DNA of 64,000 nt, taken from assembly GCF_026229185.1 (NCBI RefSeq), contig NZ_JAGGJA010000004.1:1-64000 (forward strand), given 5' to 3'. Each line of letters begins with the position of its first letter. Position 1 is the first letter of the stretch. This DNA is from Fodinibius salsisoli (GTDB taxonomy: Bacteria > Bacteroidota > Rhodothermia > Balneolales > Balneolaceae). The notes beneath the pieces were generated by a model. It worked only from the letters and a program-made list of their open reading frames with translations. It did not search any database and had not been told where the DNA came from. The position numbers and the translations under genes were made by a program. Below are positions 35,842-57,256 of the stretch, in pieces.

Positions 35842-35913
35842 ATAATTTTATTGAAAATAAATAGGCACGCAGAAAATTACTCTGGTGCCTATCACTGGCA
35901 AATAATACAATTT

Positions 35914-37359: not shown

Positions 37360-37395
37360 AGCAATCGTATTTATAAATTAGATAAAATCGTGTGT

Positions 37396-38691: not shown

Positions 38692-38702
38692 AATCCCTAA
38701 AT

Positions 38703-39206
38703 CTAAATATTTTCTTTAACCGGTGACGTTGAATCAGAATCAACAGGCTGCTGTTGCAGCTGAATAAAGTCTAAAACTTTATAATAGCAGATGAGTAACC
38801 CACTGACAGGCAGGATGAGATAGACATAAGCCAGCGGAATTTGAAGGGCCGCAGAGGTTTGATTAAGAATATAACTGATATATACGAGCTGCCCTCCGCC
38901 AATAATAAGGGCCACAATCACAAAAAGAATGATAATCAGGTTAATACCGATCTGTAATTTGCGTTTGTTTTCTCCCTCTAACTTTCGAGGAAGCAAATCA
39001 ATGGCGAGGTGCCCATTCTCCCCGGAGATGTAGGCAGCTCCCAGCATCCCAATCCAAATAAGTAAAAAACGGGCCAGCTCTTCGGTAAAGGTGCTTGCTT
39101 CTCCCATAACATAGCGGGTAAAAACCTGCCAGAGTACACACACCAGCATGATCCCCATCAACAATGACAGGAAGGATCCTACGAACTTATTGATGTTCTT
39201 TTTCAT
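38703..39206 (-). CDS. dctQ: TRAP transporter small permease
   Basis: A 167-residue DctQ subunit with four hydrophobic helices. The conserved TEELARFLLIWIGMLGAAY motif and ENGHLAIDLL are present. It bridges DctM and the binding protein. Encoded 11 bp upstream of dctM on the same transcript. Confidence 0.93.
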   Translation of the reverse strand: MKKNINKFVGSFLSLLMGIMLVCVLWQVFTRYVMGEASTFTEELARFLLIWIGMLGAAYISGENGHLAIDLLPRKLEGENKRKLQIGINLIIILFVIVALIIGGGQLVYISYILNQTSAALQIPLAYVYLILPVSGLLICYYKVLDFIQLQQQPVDSDSTSPVKENI

Positions 39207-39223
39207 AACATTATACCTAATAC

Positions 39224-40216
39224 CTATGGTTGAACTTGACGGATACGTTCAGCTAAATCGTATAATTCAGGATTACTTTCCTGTATCTGGTCATAAATCG
39301 GTTGCGTCATTTCCATGAAAGGCTCTTTGTCTGGTCGATTTATTTCTACTCCTGCTTCTTTTACAACTTCCAGTGCTTCTTTTTCAGCATCAGCCCACAA
39401 TTCACGCTGATGGATCGCCGATTCATCGGCTGCCTCTTGCAGCCACTGTTGCTCTTGTTCGCTAAGCTTATCCCATGTCTTGGTTCCAATTAAAAGAATA
39501 TCCGGAACGGCGGTATGCTCATTCAAACTGTAAAATTTACAAACTTCATAGTGCCGGGAGGTATGAAAAGAAGGGGGATTATTTTCAGCCCCATCCACAA
39601 TGCCCTGTTGAAGTGCTGAGTAGAGCTCGCCCCAGGAAATTGGGGTAGGAGAGCCGCCTAAATTGTTTACCAGTGAAATAGCCATCGCACTTTCCTGAAC
39701 CCGTACCTTAAGTCCCTGAAGGTCTTCAGGCGTTTCAATGGGTTTGGATTTTGTGTAAAAGCTTCGAAAACCAGCATCGTAATACGTTAACCCTCGTAAC
39801 CAGAATTGTTCAGGCTCCTGGAGTAGATTTTTACCTATTTGGCTATCAAAGACTTCAAATTTATGTTGATCGTCTCGGAATAGGTAGGGAAGACTAAAGA
39901 CCCTGATTTTGGGAGCGAAATTTTCTAATACAGCAGCTGATACTTTGGTGATATCCAAACTACCAATTTGGAGGAGCTCCAAGAGCTCTCTCTCTGAACC
40001 AAGTTGCTGGCTGGGATAGATTTTGATTTCAAGCTTTCCCTTTGATCGCTCTTTGACCTTTTCAGCCATAAATTCCATCGCCTTATGGACAGGATGCGTA
40101 ATATCCAGTCCATGACCAAGGCGAAGAGTCTTGACATTGGTATCTTGTTCACAACTACCAATAAAAAGGATGAGAAAACTGAGGATTGCTATCGAGAAAT
40201 ATTTCCGAAAAGTCAT
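39224..40216 (-). CDS. dctP: TRAP transporter substrate-binding lipoprotein
   Basis: A 330-residue DctP-family binding protein. The signal ends in FLILFIGSC, a lipobox, so it is membrane-anchored rather than free in the periplasm as in Proteobacteria. Family motifs: LRLGHGLDITHPVHKAMEFM, QLGSERELLELLQIGSLDI, LKVRVQESAMAI with the carboxylate-binding Arg, and QQGIVDGAENNPPSF. Placement between eda and dctQ points to hexuronate as ligand; this is context, not sequence proof. Confidence 0.93.
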   Translation of the reverse strand: MTFRKYFSIAILSFLILFIGSCEQDTNVKTLRLGHGLDITHPVHKAMEFMAEKVKERSKGKLEIKIYPSQQLGSERELLELLQIGSLDITKVSAAVLENFAPKIRVFSLPYLFRDDQHKFEVFDSQIGKNLLQEPEQFWLRGLTYYDAGFRSFYTKSKPIETPEDLQGLKVRVQESAMAISLVNNLGGSPTPISWGELYSALQQGIVDGAENNPPSFHTSRHYEVCKFYSLNEHTAVPDILLIGTKTWDKLSEQEQQWLQEAADESAIHQRELWADAEKEALEVVKEAGVEINRPDKEPFMEMTQPIYDQIQESNPELYDLAERIRQVQP

Positions 40217-40218
40217 CG

Positions 40219-40893
40219 TCAGTTATCCTCTTTTATTTCTTTAATAAGCTGGAGTGTATCCTGAACATGGTCTTGCAGTCCGTCGTAGTCGCGGTCTTTC
40301 AAGAACTGTTTGGTCACCAGCTTTGAGCCCATTCCCACGCAGGTAGCGCCGGCTTCGAACCAGCCTCGCAGGTTGTCCTCCTCAGCGGTTACTCCGCCGG
40401 TTGGCATAATGGATGTCCACGGGCACGGACCGGTAACGGCCTTCACAAAGCCGGGGCCCAGCTGGCTGCCGGGGAAAGCTTTGACAATTTCGGCCCCGAG
40501 CTCTTCTGCCCGGTTAATTTCGGTCAATGTCCCGCAACCGGCTGCCCACATCACCTTTCGGCGGTTGCAGGTCCGGGCTACATCTTCTTTTAGCATGGGA
40601 GTAACCACAAAGTTAGCTCCCAACTGCATGTACTGAGCGGCAGTGGCCCCATCAACCACGGATCCAACTCCCAGGATCATCTTCGGGAGTTCACGGGCGG
40701 CAAACTTGTTAAGCTCACCAAATACTTCGTGTGCAAAGTCGCCCCGGTTGGTAAACTCCAGCAACCGGGCTCCACCTTGATAACAGGCGGTTAGAACTTC
40801 TTTAGCAACTTCAACATCCTGATGGTAAAACAGCGGAACAAGGCCGGTTTCGGCCATAACACTGGCTACCTCTATACGTGAAAATCGTGCCAT
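40219..40893 (-). CDS. eda: KDPG / KHG aldolase
   Basis: A 224-residue class I aldolase that splits 2-keto-3-deoxy-6-phosphogluconate into pyruvate and glyceraldehyde-3-phosphate. Motifs: GLVPLFYHQDVEVAKEV, LLEFTNRGDFAHEVF with the catalytic Glu region, LGVGSVVDGATAAQYMQLGA, FVVTPML, AAGCGTLTEI, IVKAFPGS with the Schiff-base Lys, and IMPTGGV. It follows kdgK and ends 2 bp before dctP. Final step of the uronate route. Confidence 0.93.
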   Translation of the reverse strand: MARFSRIEVASVMAETGLVPLFYHQDVEVAKEVLTACYQGGARLLEFTNRGDFAHEVFGELNKFAARELPKMILGVGSVVDGATAAQYMQLGANFVVTPMLKEDVARTCNRRKVMWAAGCGTLTEINRAEELGAEIVKAFPGSQLGPGFVKAVTGPCPWTSIMPTGGVTAEEDNLRGWFEAGATCVGMGSKLVTKQFLKDRDYDGLQDHVQDTLQLIKEIKEDN

Positions 40894-40923
40894 AATATTG
40901 CGTCAGTCTTTAGAAAATTACGG

Positions 40924-41958
40924 TTATCGAGAGACGCGTCCAGAGGCGTCGCCTTCCATGAGTTTTTCAACCTCAGCCACTGTCGACAGATTGGCATCTC
41001 CATAGATGGTATGTTTCAGACAGGAGGCAGCCACGGCAAATTCAAGCGCCTGTTGGTCACTCTCGTAGGTCATTAGTCCGTAGATGAGTCCGCCCATGAA
41101 GGAGTCTCCACCACCTACACGATCTACAATATGCGTAATTTGGTAGGTAGGCGCCTCTAAAAACTCGTCTCCATTGTAAAGAACGCCAGACCAGCTGTTA
41201 TGTGAAGCACTTATGGATCCCCGGAGGGTTGTAATCACTTTTTGGGCACGCGGGAATCGCTCCATGAGGGCCTCGCAAGTAGCTCGATAGGCTTCCGCTT
41301 CCACTGAATCGCCTTGGGTGACGTCCACCGTATCGGGGTGTATTCCAAAATGTTTTTCAGCATCTTCCTCGTTACCCAGAATCACATCACACCCTTCCAC
41401 AAGTTCGGGCATTACCTCGCCAGGTTCTTTGCCATAATTCCACAATTTGGCGCGGTAGTTTAGATCCGTAGAAACTGTTACCCCGAGCTCGTTCGCTGCT
41501 TGGATCGCTTCTAAACAGACATCGGCGGCTCCTTGAGAAAGCGCAGGAGTGATGCCGGTCCAGTGGAACCAACCCGCATCGTCAAAGACTTTCTCCCAGT
41601 CGATAGTGCCTTTCTCAATGGTAGAGATAGCAGAATGAGCCCGATCATATACAACTTTACTTCCGCGGCTGACGGCTCCGGTCTCCAGGAAATAAATGCC
41701 AAGTCGTTCACCGCCCCAGGCAATATTATCAGTACCAACGCCTCGCTTGCGCATTTCCATCATCGCGCAGTGGCCCAGGTCATTGTCGGGCAGGCGGGTT
41801 ACAAAATCCACGGGAACGCCGTAGTTGGCCAATGATACAGCCACATTAGATTCTCCGCCCCCATAGATGACATCAAAAGAGCTGGCTTGTGAAAACCGCA
41901 GTTTGCCTGGTGGAGACAGCCGCAGCATAATTTCTCCAAACGTTATTGCTTTTTGCAT
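40924..41958 (-). CDS. kdgK: 2-keto-3-deoxygluconate kinase (PfkB family)
   Basis: A 344-residue PfkB sugar kinase. The N-terminal GEIMLRLSPPGKLRF and GGGESNVAVSLANYG, the middle WFHWTGITPALS, and the C-terminal anion hole and catalytic base DRVGGGDSFMGGLIYGL are clear. With eda next door, phosphorylation of KDG to KDPG is the natural reading. It lies 24 bp after uxaC. Confidence 0.93.
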   Translation of the reverse strand: MQKAITFGEIMLRLSPPGKLRFSQASSFDVIYGGGESNVAVSLANYGVPVDFVTRLPDNDLGHCAMMEMRKRGVGTDNIAWGGERLGIYFLETGAVSRGSKVVYDRAHSAISTIEKGTIDWEKVFDDAGWFHWTGITPALSQGAADVCLEAIQAANELGVTVSTDLNYRAKLWNYGKEPGEVMPELVEGCDVILGNEEDAEKHFGIHPDTVDVTQGDSVEAEAYRATCEALMERFPRAQKVITTLRGSISASHNSWSGVLYNGDEFLEAPTYQITHIVDRVGGGDSFMGGLIYGLMTYESDQQALEFAVAASCLKHTIYGDANLSTVAEVEKLMEGDASGRVSR

Positions 41959-41982
41959 GATAGTAAGTTGTTTTTGAATTGA

Positions 41983-43383
41983 TTAGAAGTTGAAATATTC
42001 TTCTGCGTTGTTGTAGCAAATATCTGAGACAATTTTACCCAGCCATTCAATATCATTGGGCAATAGTCCTTTATCGACGTCTTCACCGATAAGATTACAT
42101 AAGATACGGCGAAAGTAGTCATGGCGTGGGTAGGACAGGAAGCTACGCGAGTCCGTAAGCATTCCGACAAAGCAACTCAACAGCCCTAAGTTAGACAGCG
42201 CGTTAATCTGCTTTTCCATACCATCTTTTTGATCCAGGAACCACCAGGCTGACCCAAATTGCATTTTTCCTTTGGTTGACCCATCGTTGAAGTTGCCGAT
42301 CATTGAGGCCATAACTTCATTGTCACTGGGATTCAAATTATAAAGGATGGTTTTAGCCAGCTGGTCGGTTGAATCAAGTTCATTTAAAAATTTTGCAAGC
42401 GTCTGGCTCTGAGAAAAGTCTCCAATCGAATCAAAGCCGGTGTCGGGACCCAATTGGCGCATCATACGATCATTGGTATTGCGTAAGGCACCAAGATGGT
42501 ATTGCTGTACCCAGTTTCTGCTTTCATACATTTTACCGAGCTCGAGCATTATATAATAGGACAAGCTGTAAGCCTGGCTCTTACTGAGGTTATCACCGCC
42601 CCGAACCTGGTCAAAAGCATTACTCAATTCTTCTGTAGTAGCTTCAGCATAGTAAATTTTTTCAACGCCATGATCTGCCAGGCGGCACCCTTGGGTATGA
42701 AAATAGTCTATACGCGCTTCCAGTGCACTTAACAAGTCCTCAAGGTTGTTGATGGAAATATCGCTGACCTCTTCGAGCTTGTCCAAATAGGTATTATATC
42801 CCTGAACATCATCAAACGAATAGGCCTTATCGGGGCGAAAAGCAGGTATTACTTTGGTGCCGAAAGGATCTTCTTTTATTTTCTTATGATGCTCCAGAGA
42901 ATCTACCGGATCATCCGTTGTACAAATTGTTTTGACATTATTTTTCTCTATCAGGCTTTGCGTGCTAAAAGAGGGTTTTTGCAGTAATGCGGTACATTCA
43001 TCGTAAATTTGTTCACCGGTATCAGCATCCAGTAATTCATCCACATCAAAATAGCTCTGAAGCTCCATGTGGGTCCAGTGATAGAGCGGATTACGAACCG
43101 TATATGGGACCGTTTCTGCCCATTTCATGAATTTTTCTTTATCGGGAGCATCACCGGTAATGTATTTCTCGTCGATGCCGAGCGTGCGCATCGCTCTCCA
43201 TTTATAATGGTCCCCATCCAACCAAATATTTGTGAGGTTATCAAAATTTTTATCAGTGGCAATTTCGTCAGGGGGAAGGTGGCAGTGATAATCGATAATT
43301 GGGCAAGATGCTGCGTATTCGTGATAAAGTTTTTCAGCAGCTTTCGATTCTAGTAAAAAGTTTTTGGATAAAAAGGAGCTCAT
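41983..43383 (-). CDS. uxaC: Uronate (glucuronate/galacturonate) isomerase
   Basis: A 466-residue UxaC that interconverts galacturonate/tagaturonate and glucuronate/fructuronate. Motifs: IIDYHCHLPPDEIA (metal-binding HxH), NIWLDGDHYKWRAMRTLG, NPLYHWTHMELQSYF, CTTDDPVDSLEHHK, HLGALRNTNDRMMRQLGPDTG and SCFVGMLTDSRSFLSYPRHDYFRR. First gene of the operon that runs to 34651. Promoter and LacI-type operator lie directly upstream (43402-43445). Confidence 0.96.
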   Translation of the reverse strand: MSSFLSKNFLLESKAAEKLYHEYAASCPIIDYHCHLPPDEIATDKNFDNLTNIWLDGDHYKWRAMRTLGIDEKYITGDAPDKEKFMKWAETVPYTVRNPLYHWTHMELQSYFDVDELLDADTGEQIYDECTALLQKPSFSTQSLIEKNNVKTICTTDDPVDSLEHHKKIKEDPFGTKVIPAFRPDKAYSFDDVQGYNTYLDKLEEVSDISINNLEDLLSALEARIDYFHTQGCRLADHGVEKIYYAEATTEELSNAFDQVRGGDNLSKSQAYSLSYYIMLELGKMYESRNWVQQYHLGALRNTNDRMMRQLGPDTGFDSIGDFSQSQTLAKFLNELDSTDQLAKTILYNLNPSDNEVMASMIGNFNDGSTKGKMQFGSAWWFLDQKDGMEKQINALSNLGLLSCFVGMLTDSRSFLSYPRHDYFRRILCNLIGEDVDKGLLPNDIEWLGKIVSDICYNNAEEYFNF

Positions 43384-43401: not shown

Positions 43402-43445
43402 TGCAATCGATTGCGCAATTAAGGGATTATAAATAATTAATTCAA
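43402..43445 (-). promoter_or_regulatory. Promoter and LacI-family operator of the uxaC operon
   Basis: On the minus strand TTG (43445-43443), a 19-bp spacer and CTTAATTG (43423-43416) form a Bacteroidota-type -33/-7 promoter. The operator CGCAATCGATTGCA (43415-43402) follows at once, so a bound repressor would cover the transcription start. The uxaC ATG is 18 bp further on. Confidence 0.75.
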
Positions 43446-43632: not shown

Positions 43633-44670
43633 CTACTTTTTTTCCTTGAGGGATGATTTTCGAACAATAAGCTCAGGATTTAAAACCGTCTTGCTGGGGG
43701 CGTAATTATTTTTTTCGCCATCCATGTGATCCAGGAATTTCTGTGCAGATATCTGGCCCATCTTTTCGCCATGCTGGTCGATGGTCGTAAGAGCTGGTTC
43801 CACGAAGGAAGTAAATGATTCATTTAAAAAACCAACAATGCCAATATCTTCCGGTATGCGTATGCCATTGTTTTTAAGGACCTCCATGGCGCCTACCGCC
43901 CCATAATCACTTGCCGAAAAAATAGCATCAGGTAATTTATCCCATGAGAGTACTTCTTTACCCAGCTCTCTTCCGGCTTCTAACTTTAGATTGCTTTCTA
44001 CAATTAAGCTTTCGTCAATAGGAATGTTATGTCTTTTTAGCGCTTCTTCATAGCCTCGGCGTCGCTCTTTATAAATGCTGATATGTTGTTGGCCAGAAAA
44101 ATGCGCAATTCTTTTATAGCCTTGCTCTATTAGGTGTTCCGTAGCCTTATAGGCTCCGAGGTAATCATTGATGACCACAGAGCTGACTTTAAGCGACTCG
44201 AGCGTTTCATGGAGCCGGTCGAAAAGAATGAGAGGAACATTTTGGTTGACAATTTCTTCGTAATGACTGAATTCTGTTGTCTCTTTAGCATATGAAGCTA
44301 AAATGCCATCCACCTGAGATTCCAAGAGAGCTTTTATATTCGCTTTCTCTTTTTCCGGAGAGTCGTTAGACTGGCTGATGATAACGCGATATCCAGCTTG
44401 GTTTACAACCTCCTCCACACCACGAATAATTGAGGCAAAAAAGTTTCGGTCTGCCATCGGAATAATCACTCCAATAATATTACTCTTTCCTTTCCGGAGA
44501 GCTGCTGCAATATGGTTTGGTTGATAGTCGAGTTTGTCTGCTGTTTTTACAACAAGTTCTTTCGTTGCATCACTAATTCGGGGGTGATCTTTGAGTGCTC
44601 TTGATACTGTGGAAGCCGTAATATCAAGCTCTTCAGCAATATCATGGATGGTGGTTTTTTTATTTTTCAT
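43633..44670 (-). CDS. LacI-family regulator of pectin/uronate genes
   Basis: A 345-residue LacI/GalR-type protein. The HTH (TIHDIAEELDITASTVSRAL) and hinge helix (NHIAAALRKGKSNIIGV) are followed by the periplasmic-binding-protein-like effector domain (ADRNFFASIIRGVEEV, SASDYGAVGAMEVL, TTIDQHGEKMGQISAQ). It sits between the two arms of the uronate/pectin locus, and five LacI-type palindromes (core AATCGATT) lie at the promoters of both arms. It most likely represses them and releases on a uronate or KDG-type metabolite. The inducer is inferred. Confidence 0.92.
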   Translation of the reverse strand: MKNKKTTIHDIAEELDITASTVSRALKDHPRISDATKELVVKTADKLDYQPNHIAAALRKGKSNIIGVIIPMADRNFFASIIRGVEEVVNQAGYRVIISQSNDSPEKEKANIKALLESQVDGILASYAKETTEFSHYEEIVNQNVPLILFDRLHETLESLKVSSVVINDYLGAYKATEHLIEQGYKRIAHFSGQQHISIYKERRRGYEEALKRHNIPIDESLIVESNLKLEAGRELGKEVLSWDKLPDAIFSASDYGAVGAMEVLKNNGIRIPEDIGIVGFLNESFTSFVEPALTTIDQHGEKMGQISAQKFLDHMDGEKNNYAPSKTVLNPELIVRKSSLKEKK

Positions 44671-44946: not shown

Positions 44947-44974
44947 TGTAATCGATTGCACTCTGGCAAAATAG
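44947..44974 (-). promoter_or_regulatory. LacI-type operator with possible promoter of the regulator gene
   Basis: TGTAATCGATTGCA at 44947-44960. On the minus strand CTATTTTG (44974-44967), close to TAnnTTTG, lies 6 nt upstream of it, the same order as at the other promoters; no good -33 is seen. This would give autoregulation with a leader of about 285 nt. It may also loop with the operator at 45165, 218 bp away centre to centre. Confidence 0.55.
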
Positions 44975-45130: not shown

Positions 45131-45178
45131 TTTGCAATACTTAGGTCTATTCTTTTATTTGATGTGCAATCGATTGTT
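45131..45178 (+). promoter_or_regulatory. Promoter and LacI-type operator of the ECF sigma gene
   Basis: TTTG (45131-45134), a 19-bp spacer, and TTTATTTG (45154-45161) form the promoter; the operator TGCAATCGATTGTT (45165-45178) starts 3 nt later. The stretch begins ATTTGCAATA, exactly as at 57206. It sets the sigma gene start at the downstream ATG 45228. The rest of 44671-45227 holds no gene. Confidence 0.72.
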
Positions 45179-45227
45179 CAATTGCGTGTTTTCTTTTATT
45201 TATTTTCAAAGGGATTTAGACAAGATA

Positions 45228-45815
45228 ATGAAATCGTCTGTTGACAAAGATCGTATAAAACGGGAAACCCGATGGGTTAAGGAGATACAAAAGGGCAAGC
45301 GGGATAGTTTTAAGGCGTTATATCAGTTTTACTATCCTCGCTTGAGTCAATTTGTATTTCGTTATGTAAAATCCAAAGCTATCGCTGAGGACCTGGTCCA
45401 TAATGTTTTTCATAATATCTGGAAAAATAGAAATAACCTTAAAGCGAACGGTAAGCTAAGGGCCTATTTATATACGGCAGTTCGAAATCAGTCGTTCAAG
45501 TTTTTAAACCGGCGTAAAGGACAGTTGCAGACCACATTCGATGATTTGTCATTCCTTGAAAGCAGAGAAGCGAATCCAGAGGAGCAAATAAATGGGAAAG
45601 AGTTTGAAGAGGCTATTCAGTCTGCTATAAGGGAGTTGCCAAAACGCCGAAGAGCTGTTTTCCTAATGAGCAGAGAGGATGATTTGACGTATAGAGAAAT
45701 TGCTGAGGTCTTAGAAATTTCTGTTAAAACGGTAGAAACACAAATGAGCCGGTCGTTAAAGCATCTCCGTCACCGACTTGCTCATTTTATCTCCTCAGAA
45801 AACGTTTCTACATAA
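45228..45815 (+). CDS. FecI-like ECF sigma factor
   Basis: A 195-residue RNA polymerase sigma-70 factor of the Bacteroidota ECF type. Region 2: FKALYQFYYPRLSQFVFRYV, AIAEDLVHNVFHNIWKNR and AYLYTAVRNQSF; region 4: IRELPKRRRAVFLMSRED followed by LTYREIAEVLEISVKTVETQ. The frame is open upstream to 45132, but that part would place the operator inside the gene; ATG 45228 gives the usual length. It is followed by FecR and a SusC with an STN domain, the full trans-envelope signalling set. Its likely target promoter lies at 46011-46042. Confidence 0.92.
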   Translation: MKSSVDKDRIKRETRWVKEIQKGKRDSFKALYQFYYPRLSQFVFRYVKSKAIAEDLVHNVFHNIWKNRNNLKANGKLRAYLYTAVRNQSFKFLNRRKGQLQTTFDDLSFLESREANPEEQINGKEFEEAIQSAIRELPKRRRAVFLMSREDDLTYREIAEVLEISVKTVETQMSRSLKHLRHRLAHFISSENVST

Positions 45816-46010
45816 TGAAGACTTCCTAAAAAATATTGAAAGAGGGGGTACTTGTTTACCCATCTGGCTGAAAAATAAGCATTTGAACGGATAGGTATAG
45901 TAAAAAGTCTCTGATGCTGACAGTTAGCGTATTATGAGCCCATCGGTATAGTTCGATAGATCAAGAAAAGTTCGACCCTTCCATCATTTTTCAAAAAAAG
46001 TAAAAAAAAC

Positions 46011-46042
46011 TTGTAGGGGTAGTTCTAGTTTTTTCGGTATAG
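46011..46042 (+). promoter_or_regulatory. Candidate ECF-sigma promoter for fecR-susCD
   Basis: TTGTAGGGG (46011-46019) and CGGTATAG (46035-46042) are placed with 16 nt between GTAGGG and CGGTAT, the spacing of ECF -35/-10 elements. It lies 40 bp before the fecR ATG in a 266-bp gap after the sigma gene. The recognition sequence of this sigma factor is not known, so this is positional inference. Confidence 0.45.
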
Positions 46043-46081
46043 AGAGTAGAGCACTTAAAGATCAACCGAAAAAACATCCAA

Positions 46082-47173
46082 ATGAATTCCAAAGAAATCA
46101 ACTGGAATAAACTTCTGCGGTACATACGCGGGGATAGTTCCCATGAGGAGCAAAAGGAAGTTGAGGAATGGGCTAGCTCCAGTTCAGAGAATAAGAATGT
46201 TATTTCTTTTTTGGAAGGAGTATGGCAAGCATCTGCTGAAGAGAAAGAGGATTGGGATGTAGATTCAGCCTGGCTGCGCTATGAATTTCGCTATGGAAAA
46301 GATTTTCAGGATCCTGCGGAGGAAGGTGAAACAGATAAAAGCCGTATACCTACATCCGGGTCTCCCCAAAAGGAAGTCAAGGTTGCTGAGGATAGAAAAT
46401 CGGGTGTCCTTAGCTGGGCATTGGTAGCGGCGGCCGCAGCGTTAGTCTGTTTAATAGTGTTATACAGTTATCCGTCTCAGAAGGCGTCCGTTACTGAGGC
46501 TCCGCCTATGAAAGAGATTGTTGCTAAACATGGTCAGCGCATTCATTTTCGTCTCAGCGATGGCACGAAAGTTACTTTGAATGCCGGGAGCAAAATCATA
46601 GCACCTAAAGTTTTCTCAGATTCGGCACGTACCCTCCAACTCGAGGGACAAGCCTTTTTTGATGTGGCTACTGATTCAACGCGTCCTTTCCTGGTTAATA
46701 CGGATCGGTCTTTAACGAAAGTTCTTGGAACACGATTCGATGTGAAAGCTTATCCAACAGATAGTAGAGTGGAAGTTACAGTAGCAGAAGGTAAAGTGGC
46801 GCTACAAGCTGTTCGGAGTATAAATGATGCTGGCAATGCCCAAGTGATTACACGCGGATATCAGGGGTATCTATCACCAGAAGGGAATGCTTCGGTAACA
46901 AAAGTAGGTGATATAAACAGTTATATAGGCTGGACCAAAGGGCAGTTGGTCTTTAATAATGATCCGTTTGCTCAGGTAAAAAGGGTGCTGGAGCGGTGGT
47001 ATGATATTGAAATAAGTATTGCGTCTGAACCTGGGGATACACTTAGCAAGCAAAGGTTTACGGGTTCTTTTACCGATACTCAATCTATGGATGAGGTGCT
47101 CGAGGCCATTGCTCTTTCCTTAAATATCAAATTCAAAAAAATGTCGGATGGCTCGTATACCATCTACGAATAA
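46082..47173 (+). CDS. FecR-family anti-sigma factor
   Basis: A 363-residue inner-membrane protein. The cytoplasmic N-terminus (about 1-105; NWNKLLRYIRGDSSHEEQKE) binds the sigma factor, one TM helix (about 107-128; WALVAAAAALVCLIVLYSYP) crosses the membrane, and the periplasmic FecR domain (GQRIHFRLSDGTKVTLNAGS, VLGTRFDVKAYPTDSRVEV) precedes a C-terminal DUF4974-type domain (RFTGSFTDTQSMDEVLEAIA). The partner SusC with an STN domain follows 25 bp later, so a substrate signal can pass from outer membrane to the sigma factor. Confidence 0.93.
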   Translation: MNSKEINWNKLLRYIRGDSSHEEQKEVEEWASSSSENKNVISFLEGVWQASAEEKEDWDVDSAWLRYEFRYGKDFQDPAEEGETDKSRIPTSGSPQKEVKVAEDRKSGVLSWALVAAAAALVCLIVLYSYPSQKASVTEAPPMKEIVAKHGQRIHFRLSDGTKVTLNAGSKIIAPKVFSDSARTLQLEGQAFFDVATDSTRPFLVNTDRSLTKVLGTRFDVKAYPTDSRVEVTVAEGKVALQAVRSINDAGNAQVITRGYQGYLSPEGNASVTKVGDINSYIGWTKGQLVFNNDPFAQVKRVLERWYDIEISIASEPGDTLSKQRFTGSFTDTQSMDEVLEAIALSLNIKFKKMSDGSYTIYE

Positions 47174-47198
47174 GTTCAATCTAAACCAGAGAATAACT

Positions 47199-50100
47199 AT
47201 GAATAAACAACTCACCAAATATCGAAAAACAGGCCCGCTTTTGCTGGCAGTGTTGTGGATACTGTTGTCTATGCAAGGAGTGTTGGCTCAGCAAAGTTCT
47301 CAAGCTAACAAAAACTTTGTTCCTCTTGAATGGTATGCAGCAAACGAGAATTCTGCATCGATGTACGAAAAAGTCATCAGTATTTCTTTGGAAGAAGTGC
47401 CGCTGGTTCAGGCTATAAATGAGTTGGCCAACCGGGTGGGGGTACGACTGTCATATAATCAACGAGAATTGCCCAATAAGAAAGTGACGTTGGTTGCAGA
47501 TAACATTTCTGTGATTCGGGCTTTTGAGAAGATGTTTCAAGCCACAGGTTTGGATATTTTGGCTTCACCTTCCGGGCAAATTGTAATTAAGAAAAAAACG
47601 ATCAAGACTAATATTGCAGAAGTCATTTCTGGTAAAGTTACAGATGCTGAGACGGGAGATTTGCTTCCCGGAGTCAACATCGCAATCAAGGGAACAAGCT
47701 CAGGTACTTCAACAGGTGGGAGTGGAACTTTTGAGTTGGAGGTTCCTTCTCTGCAAGAAACCTTGGTATTTTCGTTTATCGGATATAAGACGAAGGAGGT
47801 TGCATTACAGGGGCGTAGTGAACTGGATGTCCAGCTACAGCCGGAAGCTATTGCCGGAGAAGAAGTAGTGGTGGTTGATTATGGCTATGGAACCGTAAAT
47901 CGGGCCGATTTAACGGGGTCGGTTGCGTCGGTTAGTGGTCAGGATTTGAAGGAGATCCCTGTGTCTAATGTTTCAGAGGCCATTAATGGTCGTCTGCCCG
48001 GCGTAAACGTCTTATCAACAGATGGTGCGCCCGGTGCTGAAAGTGTTATAACGATTCGGGGTGGTGGTTCTATAACGCAGGACAATTCTCCACTCTATGT
48101 GGTCGATGGTTTTATTGTTGGAAGCATCCGGGATATCCCGCCTTCTGATATTGTCAGTATTGATGTATTAAAGGATGCCGCAGCGACCGCTCTTTACGGT
48201 GCTCAGGCTTCAAACGGTGTTATTGTCATTAACACAAAAAAGCCACAGGAGGGTAAAATAAATGTATCCTACAATAATTATGTGCAATACAATAAGCTTC
48301 CCTCTGACAGGAAATATGATGTCTTATCTCCTTATGGGTATGTGATGGCCAATTATGAACAGGCTAAACTGAGGTCTGAGGCCGACTTAAGAAATTTTGA
48401 AAAGTATTACGGAAAATATGATGACCTGGAGTTATACAAAGCCAAGCCGGGTACCAATTGGCAGGAAGAGCTTTTCGGCGATCCTCAGCTATCTCAATAT
48501 CACAATCTGAGCATCAATGGAGGCACAGAATACACAAAAATGGTTCTAAGCCTGTCTCATAATGATGAAGATGGCCTTTTAGTAGGATCCGGTTATCGGC
48601 GGTCAACAATCAATTTCAAACTAAACCAAAGGTTGGCCAACTCTCTGCAAATGGATGTATCAACCAGAATAACCAACACCCGGATTGATGGCTCTGGTAC
48701 TTCGGGAAGTTCTCAAATTCGTATTAAGGATGCTATTACCCGGCGGCCGGTCAATGGTATCGCCGATGAACTGGATATCGATTTAACAAATGTAAATAAC
48801 GATGATGAGTACCAATCATTTTTGTTAAACATGATTAATCCCCGGGACCTTGCAGAACAAGATTGGAGAAAAAGAACCGAAAACTCCTATGTATTTAATG
48901 CGGGGTTGACCTGGGATCCAATGGACAATATGATTGTTAAATCAACCTTCACCACCAAAAAATCTTTTGAAGAAAACCTGCGGTTTTATGGGCCGCTCAC
49001 AGGAGAGTCCAGGCAGGAAGGGAATAGTTTGCCGTTGGGCACCAAAAATGAATCGCAAGGTCAATCCTACCGTTGGCTAAATACAATTAAATATGTGTTT
49101 AACAACTTTGATAAACACGACTTGGATATTTTAGTCGGTCAGGAGATATACTCTACCGGTGGGAAAGGTAATTACGTTCGGGTTGAAGACTTCAGGGAAT
49201 CGATGCTTCCTGACGAATTATTTGCGAATATGGCTCTTGGAAACCTGGTAGATCAATCAACCTCACGGTCTACAAATCGAAACCGATTTTCCTTGTTCAC
49301 AGGCAGTAATTATCAGTATGATGACAGGTACCTGTTGACGGCTACGCTAAGGGCTGATGCCTCCAGTAAATTTAAGGAATCAAACCGATTAGGATTTTTC
49401 CCCGCCGTAGCCTTGGGGTGGAAGTTATCTAACGAGTCGTTTTTGGAAGAGCTGGAGTTTCTTGATCGGTTGAAACTGAGGCTCAGCTATGGCATCACCG
49501 GCAATGATCGGATTTCTGCTACGGCCTCCCAGTTTTTGTTTTCGCCCAGTACATACAATGGCCCTGGAATGGGAACCAACGATTATAACGCTTACTACTC
49601 GCCTTCTGGGAACACGCTTTATAACCCCAACCTTATCTGGGAATCTACCATCCAGAAGAACATAGGTCTCGATTTTGGATTCTTGGATTCAAAGATAAAC
49701 GGGAGCCTTGATCTGTATCATAACACAACTAAAGATCTGTTGCTGAAATCTGCTATATCCCCTGTATCAGGGTTTTCAACGCAGTGGAACAATATAGGAA
49801 GTACGGCAAACAAGGGAATAGAGCTGGGGCTGAATGCTTATATAATTAATAAGCAGAATTTTACTCTCAGGGGAAACTTTAACTTTGCCATCAATCGTCC
49901 GGAAATTGTTGAGCTGGATGGCACTGAAGAAAGATTCTACCAATCGAATTGGTCCAGCACCGACTTAAAGGATCGAAATGACTTTTACTTAAAGGTAGGA
50001 CGGTCCATTGGATTAATGTACGGGTACGTAAATGAAGGAATGTATTCGGTCGATGATTTTGCAGGCTACAATGAATCCACCGGCGAATATATCTTGAAAG

Positions 50101-50819
50101 ATGGGGTCCCTGATAATAGTCAAACACTGGGAGTAAATAGCTTGCGGCCCGGCTATATGAAACTGAAGGATTTAAATGGTGATGGGCAAATTAACAGCCA
50201 GGATAGAAAAGTAATCGGAAATGCCATCCCGGAAGCGCAGGGAGGTTTTGGATTTGATTTAAACTACAAAGGATTTGATGCCTCCGTATTCTTTAACTGG
50301 TCGTACGGAAATGATGTCTACAACACCGGGAAAATAGATTTCAATCAATTCTATCGTACAAGGTACGGCAATATGCTGAGTACCATGAGTTGGGATAATC
50401 GGTTCACTTATATCGATGTTGACGGTTCCTATACCGGGACGCCCGGGGAAGTGGTAACCGACCTCGACCAGTTGGCGGAAATGAATAAAGATAAAAAAAT
50501 ATGGAGCGGTAATAATTCTTTCGGCCAGGCAACTACCGTCTTTCATGATTGGGCAGTTGAAGATGGATCATTCATCAGGCTCAATAAATTGACGCTGGGT
50601 TATACCTTACCCACAAGCTGGACCTCTAAGGTAAGTCTTAGTAACTGCCGGGTGTATGTCACGGGCTATAATCTCGCCTTATGGACGAACTATTCTGGTT
50701 TCGATCCGGAAGTGAGTACCACCAGAAGTAGTACGTATACGGCCCTAACTCCCGGGGTAGATTATTCTTCTTACCCGCGTAGCCGATCTCTTACCGTCGG
50801 ACTGAACGTCACTTTTTAA
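47199..50819 (+). CDS. SusC-type TonB-dependent transporter with STN domain
   Basis: A 1206-residue outer-membrane protein. Signal peptide (LLLAVLWILLSMQGVLA, then QQS); STN signalling domain (about 55-130; ISLEEVPLVQAINELANRVG); carboxypeptidase-like beta-sandwich (about 145-230; VSGKVTDAETGDLLPGVNIA); TonB-box region EEVVVVDYGYG; plug (SEAINGRLPGVNVLSTDGAP, LYVVDGFIVGS, VLKDAAATALYGAQASNGVI); then a 22-strand-type barrel to the C-terminal TVGLNVTF. It should import pectin-derived oligosaccharides with its SusD and signal to FecR. ATG 47199 begins the signal peptide; an earlier in-frame ATG lies within fecR. Confidence 0.94.
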   Translation: MNKQLTKYRKTGPLLLAVLWILLSMQGVLAQQSSQANKNFVPLEWYAANENSASMYEKVISISLEEVPLVQAINELANRVGVRLSYNQRELPNKKVTLVADNISVIRAFEKMFQATGLDILASPSGQIVIKKKTIKTNIAEVISGKVTDAETGDLLPGVNIAIKGTSSGTSTGGSGTFELEVPSLQETLVFSFIGYKTKEVALQGRSELDVQLQPEAIAGEEVVVVDYGYGTVNRADLTGSVASVSGQDLKEIPVSNVSEAINGRLPGVNVLSTDGAPGAESVITIRGGGSITQDNSPLYVVDGFIVGSIRDIPPSDIVSIDVLKDAAATALYGAQASNGVIVINTKKPQEGKINVSYNNYVQYNKLPSDRKYDVLSPYGYVMANYEQAKLRSEADLRNFEKYYGKYDDLELYKAKPGTNWQEELFGDPQLSQYHNLSINGGTEYTKMVLSLSHNDEDGLLVGSGYRRSTINFKLNQRLANSLQMDVSTRITNTRIDGSGTSGSSQIRIKDAITRRPVNGIADELDIDLTNVNNDDEYQSFLLNMINPRDLAEQDWRKRTENSYVFNAGLTWDPMDNMIVKSTFTTKKSFEENLRFYGPLTGESRQEGNSLPLGTKNESQGQSYRWLNTIKYVFNNFDKHDLDILVGQEIYSTGGKGNYVRVEDFRESMLPDELFANMALGNLVDQSTSRSTNRNRFSLFTGSNYQYDDRYLLTATLRADASSKFKESNRLGFFPAVALGWKLSNESFLEELEFLDRLKLRLSYGITGNDRISATASQFLFSPSTYNGPGMGTNDYNAYYSPSGNTLYNPNLIWESTIQKNIGLDFGFLDSKINGSLDLYHNTTKDLLLKSAISPVSGFSTQWNNIGSTANKGIELGLNAYIINKQNFTLRGNFNFAINRPEIVELDGTEERFYQSNWSSTDLKDRNDFYLKVGRSIGLMYGYVNEGMYSVDDFAGYNESTGEYILKDGVPDNSQTLGVNSLRPGYMKLKDLNGDGQINSQDRKVIGNAIPEAQGGFGFDLNYKGFDASVFFNWSYGNDVYNTGKIDFNQFYRTRYGNMLSTMSWDNRFTYIDVDGSYTGTPGEVVTDLDQLAEMNKDKKIWSGNNSFGQATTVFHDWAVEDGSFIRLNKLTLGYTLPTSWTSKVSLSNCRVYVTGYNLALWTNYSGFDPEVSTTRSSTYTALTPGVDYSSYPRSRSLTVGLNVTF

Positions 50820-50830
50820 TCTAACAACCA

Positions 50831-52627
50831 ATGAATCTCATGAATGTAAAGATGAAACACTTTGTCTGGATTATAGCAATATTTTTGGTTGCCGGTTGCG
50901 ATAGCTTTTTGCAACCCGAATCGCTCTCTACCTTTGACGACAATTATGTTTTCTCGAATGTAGAGGATGCAAGAAAAGCCGTGAACTCCATCTATGTTCA
51001 ATTCAATCACGATGGATTTAGGTCAAGGCTGTCTAATAATATGACAGGGAACACGGATATTGAACACAACGGTGGATCCAGTGATGGCGCTCGATACCAG
51101 ATATGGCGGCTGGATGCTCAACCTAATAATGGTGATCTGCGTTACGTATGGGAAATAGCCTACAAGGCTATTCGTGACGCCAATATTGCGATTGAGGGAA
51201 TTTCACAGAGTGCAGCTCTTAACTCTTCCGATGAACTTGTGGCAAGAAAGATGAATCACCTGCTGGGCGAGGCCTATACATTACGCGCCTATTGGTACAG
51301 CATGCTTATCTATTATTTTGGCGATGTCCCTTTTATGACCGAAGCTCCTAAAGCAGGCGTTGACTTTAATCTGCCAAAAGAAGACAGGAACGTGATTCTT
51401 TCTTCAGTCATCGAAGACCTGATCAATATCGAAGAAGACATGATGTGGGCTGACCAGGTACAATCTGGTATTGAGCAAGTCAACAGAGAATATGCCATGG
51501 GAATGATAGCACGCCTTTCGTTACAGCGCGGCGGATGGTTCCTAACACCGGATATGACTATGGACCGAACGGACGATTACCTGGAGTATTATGAAATAGC
51601 CAATCAGTACACTAAAAAGCTTATCAGGTTAAAAGATCGTCCTTTGCCTCGGGATTATCGGCAGGTCTTTATGAACCAGAACAAGTTTATTTCTCCAGTA
51701 AACAGCGATATTCTTTTTGAGGTTCCCTTTCCTGTGGGCGAAGGCGATGTGGGATGGAATATCGGCATCCGTGTGGATAAGGGAAATCATCCCTATGGGT
51801 CGGGTGGTAACTACATGAACATCCCCCCAACCTATTACTATTCATTTGATGAACAAGATAAGCGGCGGGATGTAACCTGTTCGTGGTACTTCATCAACGA
51901 GGATTTTGAACAAGAACTGGTCAATGTAGGAGGCATTTCGCAAGGCAAGTGGAGTCGGCATTTTCTGGAAAATCCACCAGGTCCATCAACGGCTAAAGGA
52001 ACGGGTATCAACTGGCCCATGATGAGATACTCTGATGTGCTTCTTATGCATGCTGAAGCCGAAAACGAGCTCAATGGTCCAACAGTAGATGCGCAAGAAG
52101 CACTAAAACGCGTTCGTCGGCGGGCATTTCCGGAAGAGGAATGGGCTTCGAAAGTGGACCAGTATGTTGGGGAAGTATCGGCAAGTAAGCAATCATTTTT
52201 CAATGCCATAGTCGATGAGCGAGCGTGGGAGTTTGGGGGAGAGATGACCCGAAAGTATGATCTGATACGGTGGAACCTCTATGATGAGAAGATAAATGAA
52301 ACCGTTGAAGGCCTGAAAAAGATGGCTGATGATGCCTTCTATGGCACAGGGGATTTGCCTGACTATGTGTATGTAAAGCATGACGAAAATGGTGACTTGA
52401 TGATTTACAACAGGGATGAAAAAGTCGTTTCTCCCCCCGATGATACCTGGGAAAGAGAGGGATGGCTCATTGGGTTAGTGGATGAAGATCAACCCAGTAA
52501 CTATACCGAATGGATAACCCGGGACTGGGCAAACTATAATGAACCTGTACGGTATGTTTTCCCAATTCCAAGTTTAGCTATTGATAACAGCAAGGGAGTG
52601 CTGAAAAACGACGGCTACAATTTTTAA
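50831..52627 (+). CDS. SusD/RagB-family surface glycan-binding lipoprotein
   Basis: A 598-residue lipoprotein, 11 bp after susC. Signal ends FLVAGC (lipobox), followed by DSFLQPESLS, the usual SusD start. Family features: NNGDLRYVWEIAYKAIRDAN, LLGEAYTLRAYWYSMLIYYFGDVP, RLSLQRGGWFL, WPMMRYSDVLLMHAEAENEL, and IVDERAWEFGGEMTRKYDLI with RWNLY. TPR-type helices and a binding face cap the SusC barrel and capture oligosaccharides; pectin oligomers are inferred from the neighbouring enzymes. Confidence 0.94.
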   Translation: MNLMNVKMKHFVWIIAIFLVAGCDSFLQPESLSTFDDNYVFSNVEDARKAVNSIYVQFNHDGFRSRLSNNMTGNTDIEHNGGSSDGARYQIWRLDAQPNNGDLRYVWEIAYKAIRDANIAIEGISQSAALNSSDELVARKMNHLLGEAYTLRAYWYSMLIYYFGDVPFMTEAPKAGVDFNLPKEDRNVILSSVIEDLINIEEDMMWADQVQSGIEQVNREYAMGMIARLSLQRGGWFLTPDMTMDRTDDYLEYYEIANQYTKKLIRLKDRPLPRDYRQVFMNQNKFISPVNSDILFEVPFPVGEGDVGWNIGIRVDKGNHPYGSGGNYMNIPPTYYYSFDEQDKRRDVTCSWYFINEDFEQELVNVGGISQGKWSRHFLENPPGPSTAKGTGINWPMMRYSDVLLMHAEAENELNGPTVDAQEALKRVRRRAFPEEEWASKVDQYVGEVSASKQSFFNAIVDERAWEFGGEMTRKYDLIRWNLYDEKINETVEGLKKMADDAFYGTGDLPDYVYVKHDENGDLMIYNRDEKVVSPPDDTWEREGWLIGLVDEDQPSNYTEWITRDWANYNEPVRYVFPIPSLAIDNSKGVLKNDGYNF

Positions 52628-52644: not shown

Positions 52645-54261
52645 ATGAAATTTAGAAGAGGAACAATAAACAGAGTCTTATTTGTACTGGTTACAGGCAT
52701 AATGTTCTTTTACGCCTGTAAAAAGGATAATCCTGTATCACAAGAAACCCGGCTTTTTCGGCCCGTTTTAAATGAGCAATTATTTGCGGAAGACAACAGC
52801 ATTATTGTGGATATGGGAGATATGAAGGATGCTGCTTCCTATACATTGGAAGTAAGCAGGGATACTTTCCAGACCATCGAGCTCGAATTAGATACGGATA
52901 CCAATTATGTAGAAATTGACAGCCTCCTTTGGAATACTATTTATCAAGTACGGGCAACAGCCCATGCCGAAGATTCCGAATTTGATAGCAAGGTTTCGGA
53001 TTTGGGAGCCGTACGAACCCAGCGGTTTCCATCTATCATGGAGCTCCCGGAAAGTTTTGACGTTACGGATGTCGCCGCTCGCATCAAATGGACAAGGGGA
53101 GGTGCATTGGTAACTGGAATCAAAGTATTTGCCGGGAATGATGAAAAATTAACCACACCTATAATAGAAGAAGAGGTTACACCTGAAGATCAAAATAAGG
53201 AGCAAAAAATAGTACATGGATTAGACCCTTCGACCTCGTATCAAATTGCGATATACAGCGATGGTGAACTCCGGGGATGGGCCGAATATAAAACCAAGGA
53301 GGCTTTGCCATTAGGAGATAACGTTGTAGATCTAAGAGGAATTGATGATCCGTCTATTTTGGCTGAAACCCTGCCGACTATTGCCAACAATAGTGTAGTG
53401 TTGCTCGAAAGTGGCAAAACGTATACCACGGGAGGATACAGTTTTGATAAATCGGTAACCATCAGAAGTGGCTATGGTTTTGAGCCGGGTGGGGCAATAA
53501 TAGACTGTAGCTCAAATTTTAACATAAATGATGGTAGTGCTGTAGATTCTGTAGTCTTCAGAGACGTTACGTTAACGGGCAGTTTTGATTCAAACTATGT
53601 ATTCAACATCAACAATAGCGGCTCCATAGGAGAGGTTAAATTTCAATCATCCAATATTCGTTCACTTCGGGGCATGCTCAGGATGAAAGGAGGGGCAGGT
53701 ACAATCGATAAATATACTATTAGCAATAGTGTGGTGGATAGTATAAATGGCTATGCGTTGTTGACCGTAGATACGCCCGATTGGAGCGTTGGGGATATAA
53801 CGATAGAAAATTCTACCATATCGAGAACGCAATATTTTCTGGTAAGTCGATCTAATACCAATTCTATTACCATCGAATCTTCTACGATCAACGAAGCTCC
53901 TGAAAAGGGACGGCAGATGTTTCGATGGAGAGGAGATGAAGGGAATAACAACGTACTCAACGGCGTCAAAATCCACAATACCATATGGGGACATGGGTGG
54001 AATATGGATGGAGAGGAGGATGTCAGTGTTAGCGGCGTTGACGGAATGGAGTCAACCAACTTCGATATCGTAAATACCTACACCACATCCCAATTCTCGT
54101 TCTCTGGAGATGAGATTCCCGGATTTCCCAATTTTGTCTATGGAGGGACCGGTCAGGACCTGTGGGTGTCTCCCTATATCGATGGAGATTTTAATATTAA
54201 CGATTCTGGCTTTGCAGGTAAGAGCGATGCCGGTGATCCCCGATGGCGACTTGGATTATAA
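52645..54261 (+). CDS. DUF4957/DUF5123-like beta-helix lipoprotein
   Basis: A 538-residue lipoprotein (signal ending IMFFYAC, then KKDNP). Residues about 35-215 look like fibronectin type III-like modules (ASYTLEVSRDTFQTIELELD, TIYQVRATAHAEDSEFDSKV, GLDPSTSYQIAIYSDGELRG). Residues about 225-538 form a parallel beta-helix (VVDLRGIDDPSILAETLPTI, VTIRSGYGFEPGGAIIDCSS, and later ITIENSTISRTQYFLVSRSN, WGHGWNMDG). This layout fits the DUF4957/DUF5123 proteins often found in pectin loci. No catalytic residues are evident; a surface pectin-binding role or an undescribed lyase are both possible. Confidence 0.8.
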   Translation: MKFRRGTINRVLFVLVTGIMFFYACKKDNPVSQETRLFRPVLNEQLFAEDNSIIVDMGDMKDAASYTLEVSRDTFQTIELELDTDTNYVEIDSLLWNTIYQVRATAHAEDSEFDSKVSDLGAVRTQRFPSIMELPESFDVTDVAARIKWTRGGALVTGIKVFAGNDEKLTTPIIEEEVTPEDQNKEQKIVHGLDPSTSYQIAIYSDGELRGWAEYKTKEALPLGDNVVDLRGIDDPSILAETLPTIANNSVVLLESGKTYTTGGYSFDKSVTIRSGYGFEPGGAIIDCSSNFNINDGSAVDSVVFRDVTLTGSFDSNYVFNINNSGSIGEVKFQSSNIRSLRGMLRMKGGAGTIDKYTISNSVVDSINGYALLTVDTPDWSVGDITIENSTISRTQYFLVSRSNTNSITIESSTINEAPEKGRQMFRWRGDEGNNNVLNGVKIHNTIWGHGWNMDGEEDVSVSGVDGMESTNFDIVNTYTTSQFSFSGDEIPGFPNFVYGGTGQDLWVSPYIDGDFNINDSGFAGKSDAGDPRWRLGL

Positions 54262-54342
54262 ATACATGCAGCAGGTGTGGTTTTGACGGCCCGTCTGCTG
54301 CTATTTTTTATTTGCAATTCCAATAAAATTAGGGTCAGAGAT

Positions 54343-55809
54343 ATGAAAAAAATTAAGCCGTTTGTGTCACTATTTTGTGTAGCACTACTTTTTAGTGTGG
54401 TAAACTGTAGTGGTAACGTGGGGTCCGAGCCCGATCCCGAAGGAGAAGAACCCACCAAAGAGGAAGCGAAAGCCTTTCCCGGAGCCGAAGGATTCGGACA
54501 AGATGCCACAGGAGGGCGTGGTGGAAAGGTCCTATATGTAACTAATTTGAATGATTCAGGAGAAGGGAGCCTACGGGCGGCTATAGAAACATTTGGTCCA
54601 CGGATTATACTTTTTAAAGTCTCAGGGACCATTGCGTTAGAATCTAATCTTGATATCGATATTGGAGATGTAACGATTGCCGGGCAAACAGCGCCGGGCG
54701 GAGGTATTACCCTGAAGAATTATTCGATGCGTATAAATGCAGATAACGTGATTCTACGTTTTCTGCGGTTCCGGATGGGGGATGAGGCCGGACATCAGGG
54801 CGATGCTCTGGAAGGACGTTTCCACAAAAATATCATCGTTGACCATTGTTCGATGAGCTGGGCTACGGATGAAACAGTCACCTTTTACGCTAATGAAAAT
54901 ACAACCGTGCAGTGGTCTATAATTGCAGAAAGTTTACGGAAGTCGGTCCACGAGAAGGGAGCCCATGGCTACGGCGGCATATGGGGAGGGAGAAATGCCT
55001 CCTTTCACCATAACCTTTTGGCGCACCATGACAGCCGAAATCCCCGATTGGGCGAAGAGGCCGGAAAGGCCTTTGCCTTAACCGATTTGGTTGACCTTCG
55101 CAATAACGTAATCTATAACTGGGATGGGAATAGTACCTATGGTGGTGAGGCCATGAATGTGAACATCGTAAACAGTTATTATAAACCAGGGCCCGCCACC
55201 ACCAAAGAAGAACGGATCATTGCTATCGATAAAAATTTAGATGAAAGTACCGCTATCTATGACACCTGGGGTAAATTTCATATTAGTGGGAATTATATGG
55301 AAGGCAGTGAAAGAGCCACCGACGAGAACTGGACTTATGGAGTATATAATCAATTTCACTCAAAGTATGGAGACCTATCGGAGCAAGAAAAAGAAGCAAT
55401 GAGAATGGCAGAGCCTCATCCAATTGATGGCAATGTAACAACCCATACGGCTCTTGAGGCCTATGATCGAGTGTTGGGTTTTTCCGGAGCTTCTTTAGTT
55501 CGGGATGCCGTGGATACACGCATCATAAGTGACATTCGTAACCGAACATACACTGCCGAAGGATCAAATGGTAGTACCAATGGAATCATCGATTCTCAGG
55601 CTGATGTAGGCGGATGGCCCGAGTTAGAAAGTGAAGATCCGTCCGTTGATACCGACCAGGATGGAATGTCCGATGAATGGGAAATTGATAATGGCTTGGA
55701 TCCAGAAAAAGCCAATGCCAATGGGAGAGATCTGAGTACGGCCTATGATAATGTTGAGGTATATATTAATAGCCTGGTTACACCAATTGTAACAGAACAG
55801 AATCAGTAG
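54343..55809 (+). CDS. Pectate lyase, polysaccharide lyase family 1
   Basis: A 488-residue secreted lipoprotein (signal LFCVALLFSVVNC, then SGNVGS). The catalytic beta-helix begins FPGAEGFGQDATGGRGGKVL, then SLRAAIETFGPRIILFKVSG, FLRFRMGDEAGHQGDALEG, IIVDHCSMSWATDETVTFYA and HDSRNPRLG with the catalytic Arg region, the pattern of the Bacteroidota PL1 subfamily. It cleaves de-esterified homogalacturonan by beta-elimination with Ca2+. A D-x-D-x-D motif near the C-terminus (DTDQDGMSDEWE) is a probable Ca/dockerin-like loop. ATG 54343 begins the signal; an upstream in-frame extension adds nothing. The CE8 esterase follows 9 bp later. Confidence 0.92.
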   Translation: MKKIKPFVSLFCVALLFSVVNCSGNVGSEPDPEGEEPTKEEAKAFPGAEGFGQDATGGRGGKVLYVTNLNDSGEGSLRAAIETFGPRIILFKVSGTIALESNLDIDIGDVTIAGQTAPGGGITLKNYSMRINADNVILRFLRFRMGDEAGHQGDALEGRFHKNIIVDHCSMSWATDETVTFYANENTTVQWSIIAESLRKSVHEKGAHGYGGIWGGRNASFHHNLLAHHDSRNPRLGEEAGKAFALTDLVDLRNNVIYNWDGNSTYGGEAMNVNIVNSYYKPGPATTKEERIIAIDKNLDESTAIYDTWGKFHISGNYMEGSERATDENWTYGVYNQFHSKYGDLSEQEKEAMRMAEPHPIDGNVTTHTALEAYDRVLGFSGASLVRDAVDTRIISDIRNRTYTAEGSNGSTNGIIDSQADVGGWPELESEDPSVDTDQDGMSDEWEIDNGLDPEKANANGRDLSTAYDNVEVYINSLVTPIVTEQNQ

Positions 55810-55818
55810 AAGTAGATT

Positions 55819-56988: not shown

Positions 56989-57002
56989 TGTAATCGATTG
57001 CA
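56989..57002. promoter_or_regulatory. Upstream LacI-type operator of the second susCD unit
   Basis: TGTAATCGATTGCA, the same form as at 44947. No promoter of the local type directs transcription across it. It is 254 bp (centre to centre) upstream of the operator at 57243, so it may be an auxiliary site for looping. Confidence 0.65.
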
Positions 57003-57206: not shown

Positions 57207-57256
57207 TTTGCAATATATACGAGAAAATATTTACTTGATAAGTGCAATCGATTGCA
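57207..57256 (+). promoter_or_regulatory. Promoter and LacI-type operator of the second susCD unit
   Basis: TTTG (57207-57210), a 19-bp spacer, TTTACTTG (57230-57237), then the perfect palindrome TGCAATCGATTGCA (57243-57256; 16 bp with the flanking G and C). Layout matches 45131-45178. The susC ATG at 57320 follows with AGGA just upstream. The rest of 56896-57319 contains no gene. Confidence 0.75.

Follow-up and report, generated by a model that had tools for sequence, protein, structure and literature searches.

We analysed a 64-kb stretch of DNA from Fodinibius salsisoli (the window), which holds a pectin utilisation locus on contig C38 of a 4.85-Mb genome. In this locus the gene of a LacI-family regulator neighbours those of a FecI-type extracytoplasmic function (ECF) sigma factor, a FecR protein and an N-terminally extended SusC protein (SusC1), a gene set that had been named in an earlier note on this DNA and was recovered here by profile matches. 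We propose, with a probability of about 0.68, that these genes form a serial two-input switch, in which the LacI-type regulator would gate sigma synthesis, FecR and SusC1 would gate sigma activity, and sigma would transcribe fecR, susC1 and susD1. Comparison of sequences between genomes supports the set of LacI operators, the sigma-dependent promoter, the lack of such a promoter before the sigma gene itself, and a second genome in which LacI operators lie over sigma.

In the proposed mechanism, of which repression by LacI binding, the nature of the ligands, signalling through FecR and SusC1, and AND-type behaviour are what we infer, the LacI-type repressor of uronate catabolism would bind operators upstream of the sigma gene, a step that has comparative support. 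It would be released when pectin-derived uronates or their products accumulate inside the cell, and sigma would then be made. FecR would hold or license sigma until the STN-like N-terminus of SusC1 reports an external pectin oligosaccharide, a response expected by analogy with the FecI/FecR family. Sigma would finally initiate at 46012–46039, a step that again has comparative support, and drive the synthesis of FecR, SusC1, SusD1 and probably the products of the genes behind. Uronate catabolism and susC2D2 would be direct LacI targets, and the first internal signal would probably come from basal or susC2 uptake. Both signals, the internal uronate and the external oligosaccharide, are suggested by the gene content, which also points to a uronate or 2-keto-3-deoxygluconate (KDG) as the ligand of the LacI-family regulator.

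LacI-type operators and the sigma-dependent promoter

The operators considered here are palindromic with a central CG and lie near uronate catabolic genes. A search of the 4.85-Mb genome for TGYAATCGATTRCA with at most one mismatch gave 11 places, 4 of them in the window's locus, whereas the reversed pattern gave 1. LacI-type operators lie before uxaC (43402–43415, a pattern match), upstream of sigma at a distal position (44947–44960, perfect, 268 bp from the sigma ATG and 277 bp from lacI), and before susC2 at a distal (56989–57002) and a proximal (57243–57256) position, both perfect. A further site, proximal to sigma (45165–45178), has two mismatches and hence is not among the 11 genomic places; it lies 50–63 bp 5' of the sigma ATG. 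The start listed for the sigma open reading frame (ORF), a TTG at 45132, is probably too early, as the alignment of orthologues favours the ATG at 45228. With this start the proximal operator is upstream of the gene, so that the earlier claim of an operator carried by the sigma gene itself becomes one of two sites before it. All five core sites of the window are in regulatory gaps of the pectin locus and none occurs between 45176 and 56991, hence none at the fecR–susC1 promoter, which means that fecR and susC1 would answer to LacI solely via sigma or by read-through.

Orthologues of the LacI-family regulator (62–79% identity) are present beside uronate genes in 10 other genomes, and in all 10, where surroundings of up to 20 kb were inspected, operators lie near kduI, uxaC, kdgK or eda. 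Among homologues of 53–59% identity, a set that leaves out the one of G104 at a contig end, the site was found in 4 of 10 (one of them poor) and was absent in 6. This retention of the operator with the orthologues indicates that regulator and operator belong together, and that their class is uronate control. The sigma and susC2 genes share a two-operator layout, with centre-to-centre distances of 218 and 254 bp and the nearer site about 50–75 bp before the gene, and looping repression is possible at both pairs. A TAnnTTTG scan at the operators did not reveal a convincing housekeeping promoter, and a sigma-70 promoter scan was at background (5 vs 6.7).

The sigma protein matches TIGR02985 with 163.1 bits (cut-off 126.4). 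Behind its gene, on the forward strand at 46012–46039, lies the motif TGTnnGGGTA-N14-GGTA, which bears out a candidate ECF promoter placed previously at 46011–46042 and forms a conserved footprint in the gaps between sigma and the next gene. It is present in this gap in 11 of 11 sigma orthologues (the window included, and a further orthologue, G149, left out), perfectly in 7 and at 11 of 12 positions in 4; as G086 and G046 are near-copies, these are not 11 independent cases. The summed motif score is 128 of 132, against a mean of 82.5 in 300 dinucleotide shuffles (sd 2.2, maximum 89), a comparison that is flattering because the motif was derived from the same gaps; the reversed motif gives 6–9 per orthologous gap. 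No sigma-dependent promoter with two mismatches or fewer was found 5' of sigma itself, and we see no sign in the sequence that the sigma gene is autoregulated. Of 117 other FecI-type sigma genes, 26, in several phyla, are likewise followed by a site with 10–12 of the 12 positions, so the motif is part of a wider promoter class.

In the window an inverted repeat (TTTTTTCGGT / ACCGAAAAAA, 46029–46038 / 46065–46074) lies around the -10 region of the promoter before fecR; it was dropped as a control element, being absent from G011, the genome with the closest sigma orthologue (71% identity). In G082 (L153:433-5880) a DeoC-family aldolase and a GH2 enzyme are encoded between sigma and fecR, and sites like the sigma promoter are found both after sigma and before fecR.

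The FecR protein (46082–47173, forward strand) matches both PF04773 (FecR) and PF16344 (FecR_C) above cut-off and has one strongly hydrophobic stretch, at residues 108–128. The susC1 gene follows on the same strand (47199–50819, start chosen by reading), and the N-terminal segment of its product, an STN-like extension, aligns with that of 7 relatives.

LacI-linked sigma genes in other genomes

LacI operators lie upstream of sigma in 2 of the 11 orthologous loci, the window and G029, whose sigma and LacI proteins are 61% and 67% identical to those of the window. The G029 operators are at L147:9752 and 9906, the second beginning about 44 bp before the sigma ORF; both genomes thus have two sigma operators each, with no more than about 65 bp between the gene and the closer of the two. 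The neighbour of sigma in G029 is kduI, not lacI. No fecR was found beside sigma in G029, where the best FecR of the genome has at most 36% identity (the G011 orthologue has 53%), and tblastn found no FecR remnant in the gap (best E = 0.36). Perfect sigma promoters occur twice in the G029 genome, the reversed control once. One follows sigma and precedes susC2D2; the other is 65 bp before uxaC, which heads a cluster of uxaC, kdgK, eda, TRAP genes, uxaB and altronate dehydratase. The uxaC operon and susC2D2 therefore have sigma promoters in G029 and LacI operators in the window. By a rough estimate of ours, taking about one match per genome, the probability of a chance match within 300 bp before one of about ten operons of the locus is well below 1/1000. 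Of seven LacI-type places in G029, two (kduI and sigma) have the AATCGATT core, and the other five, near C1:96000-120000, are of a different kind and lie beside another LacI gene. From the arrangement in G029 it appears that the relay can also operate as a simple cascade from LacI to sigma.

The survey was extended to 130 sigma genes at 134 loci, picked by likeness to the window's sigma. Sigma lies within two ORFs of a LacI gene in 41 of the 130, the window gene included, a fraction that is no base rate because the loci were selected by likeness and contain duplicates (G106 and L001 cover one and the same part of a contig). The 40 genes outside the window represent 39 distinct sequences, from Dyadobacter, Telluribacter, Rhabdobacter, Chryseolinea and Agaribacillus, which we take to belong to the order Cytophagales. 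Relatives of uxuA or uxaC follow in 38 of these 39 loci (L017, L018, L026 and L032 among them; the exception is L067), GGGAACGGT-type palindromes lie less than 450 bp before sigma in 37, and a FecR-labelled ORF of at least 90 amino acids (AA) was found in none of the 39 (about 16.5 kb each). The tandem form of GGGAACGGT occurs once each in 3 of the 4 genomes searched, and single copies are at background. No common sigma promoter was found in the Cytophagales loci, GGGTA-N14/15-CGTC being present between sigma and uxaC in 9 of the 39 only. Behind the Chryseolinea sigma (L018:8580 and L019:8578), a GGGTA-N14-CGTC site is present, together with an ORF of 77–78 AA that weakly resembles a lone FecR N-terminal domain (E = 0.0016 and 0.78, with Z = 1000 and a profile of 5 sequences; best shuffle 0.17).

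A single ancestral LacI–sigma unit for Balneolaceae and Cytophagales was rejected by the approximately unbiased (AU) test (p = 6.3e-6), made on 36 hand-picked rows out of the 122 of a quick tree in which the groups had already been seen apart. Since the sigma genes of the window and of G029 do not form one clade with those of Cytophagales, FecI-type sigma factors probably became coupled to LacI on two or more occasions. In the clade of the window the operator-free G011 groups, with weak support (89/21), with the window's genome (G000), and the LacI operators over sigma in this clade may have been gained once and lost once, or gained twice.

Points against the proposed two-input switch and alternative explanations

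Several observations weigh against the two-input switch. No core site is found within 600 bp of 9 of the 11 sigma orthologues, the closest one (G011) included, so LacI control would be a local addition. The sigma-proximal operator has a complete core and one weak outer half. Within the window alone, matches to loose operator patterns are not significantly more frequent than by chance: the loose pattern with two mismatches occurs 7 times where 4.1 are expected (a count of 7 is attained by 16 of 100 shuffles) and the 8-base core 5 times where 2.25 are expected (a count of 5 by 8 of 100), and these counts were dropped as proof. Genome-wide promoter counts were also rejected as proof, and weight was put on location. 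The perfect match at 46012 is the only one in the window's genome, where reversed controls lead one to expect about one per genome by chance; matches with 0–1 mismatch (22) are not above the reversed control (35), and the 18 perfect matches across 10 relatives, against 12 for the reversed motif, do not by themselves prove specificity. Of these 18, 6 are post-sigma sites already counted, 1 precedes the fecR that is displaced in G082, and 1 precedes uxaC in G029. The promoter that precedes susC2D2 in G029 is as far as 419 bp from susC2. The STN match of SusC1 (E = 0.032, 14.5 bits) is under the Pfam cut-off of 28.4; relatives gave 2.2e-4 (L150), 4.7e-5 (L154) and 0.027 (L151), none was reported for L146 and L148, and a profile search of solved structures returned nothing better than E = 0.33, with HasR at 1.3. 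Because susC2 and uronate catabolism have LacI operators of their own, double gating would extend at most to the susC1 branch. A search of the 266-bp gap between sigma and fecR revealed nothing like a terminator, so that read-through is possible. The interpretation in the earlier note is partly supported, by the LacI operators over sigma, the conserved promoter before fecR–susC1, the lack of such a promoter before sigma and the wiring in a second genome; the AND gate itself may be less than strict.

The lack of a terminator-like site would suit a priming arrangement, in which LacI-controlled transcripts read through from sigma into fecR and susC1 and the internal promoter amplifies this expression; release of LacI alone would then give substantial amounts of SusC1, which the surface signal would boost. 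Priming also has in its favour that some SusC1 must be present at the outset if the relay depends on SusC1 for SusC1 synthesis. Nevertheless, the sigma–fecR promoter is kept in all 11 orthologues, a sign that most of the transcription may start there. Neither argument is decisive, and we consider priming rather unlikely. The operators might instead serve lacI, leaving sigma outside LacI control: lacI and sigma are divergent and have a common gap, the distal site is nearly equidistant from both, and the G011 sigma has no operator. However, 50 bp separate the proximal site from sigma, compared with 495 bp on the lacI side, and in G029, where lacI is away from sigma, an operator still lies just before the sigma ORF, so that we give autoregulation of lacI very little credit. 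FecR, finally, might be a passenger in what is already a plain LacI-to-sigma cascade, as could be argued from G029, whose sigma is under LacI operators without an adjacent fecR, and from the 39 Cytophagales loci. Against this, the window encodes an intact FecR that has the two domains as well as a membrane span, directly behind the conserved sigma promoter, while SusC1 retains the N-terminal segment common to its relatives; a passenger role of FecR seems improbable to us, and the two-input switch remains our preferred reading.

Neighbouring genes, known systems and meaning

The minus strand of the locus encodes uronate catabolism and a TRAP transporter, namely uxuA, tagaturonate reductase, TRAP-M, TRAP-Q, dctP, eda, a kdgK-like gene and uxaC (34651–43383; 6 of the 8 have NCBIfam matches, and TRAP-M and TRAP-Q were assigned by reading and by their position adjoining dctP), followed by the LacI-family regulator (43633–44670), which has a helix–turn–helix domain and a periplasmic-binding-like sensor domain (PF00356 and PF13377). 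On the forward strand, the sigma gene (45228–45815), fecR and susC1 are followed by susD1 (50831–52627, Pfam), by genes for a DUF4957/DUF5123 protein, a Pfam-less protein that looks pectate-lyase-like by eye and a pectinesterase (52645–56895, Pfam), by susC2 (57320–60292, Pfam, start by reading), whose product has CarboxypepD_reg near its start and leaves no space for an STN segment, and by susD2 and a GH28 gene. Elsewhere on the same contig, LacI-type operators are found 22 bp before an altronate dehydratase gene (G000:C38:96729, L157) and before a 3-keto-disaccharide hydrolase-like gene (G000:C38:89940, L157). Three further sites with one mismatch each (G000:C11:118928, 140684 and 150208; L160, L161), two at starts of SusC-like genes and one before an unlabelled gene, have pectate-lyase-like relatives nearby, which suggests a second pectin locus within the LacI regulon.

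In E. coli, Fur controls fecIR, the sigma gene lacks autoregulation, and fecA expression needs both sigma and the surface signal (PMC9249621). The locus studied here would resemble this system in having a cytoplasmic metabolite repressor on a sigma gene that is not autoregulated, and a receptor expressed via sigma and a surface signal. It differs from it in that the repressor is a LacI-type sugar regulator, relieved presumably by a catabolite and not by starvation, in that fecR is behind a sigma-dependent promoter and not in the sigma transcript, and in that no LacI operator is present at the receptor promoter, while Fur also binds at fecA. It has the same proteins in the same order (sigma, fecR, a putatively STN-type susC, susD) as the ECF sigma/FecR/SusC polysaccharide loci of Bacteroidetes, and differs from these loci generally by the LacI operators upstream of sigma. 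In Bacteroides, the LacI-family regulators KdgR, UxaR, UxuR and UxmR are predicted for the catabolism of glucuronate, galacturonate and mannuronate (PMC3878776), and the present regulator is likened to them by class, orthology aside. The accessible part of that paper does not mention an ECF sigma gene as a target of these regulators and calls ECF promoter prediction challenging; in what we have of it, ECF/anti-sigma loci and LacI uronate regulators are treated apart and pectin loci are under hybrid two-component systems (PMC3878776; also PMC10766802). The description of the present control as not usual for pectin loci should be qualified in view of Fur acting on fecIR with the same topology and of the LacI uronate regulators predicted in Bacteroides. 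Among the titles and abstracts listed in searches of the open-licence literature, we found no description of a LacI regulator acting on an ECF/FecI-type sigma gene. What appears new is a Fur/fecIR-like topology with a LacI-type sugar repressor, the topology itself being already known from iron uptake.

The different states of these loci lead us to a tentative scheme, to which we give somewhat less than an even chance. Capture of a FecI-type sigma by LacI would be a recurrent module of uronate use, in which FecR may be lost and a pure relay then does the work of the LacI operators that govern catabolic and SusCD operons. The two-input intermediate would be seen in the window, and the captured state in G029 and, as an independent case, in Cytophagales such as Dyadobacter and Chryseolinea. 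If the two-input switch is true, an internal fuel gauge and an external glycan sensor are joined in one locus, the Fur/FecI logic is carried from iron to polysaccharides, and a concrete promoter sequence becomes available for a FecI-type sigma. The replacement of LacI operators by sigma promoters, at two operons common to both related genomes, would then be a clear and testable case of regulatory rewiring.

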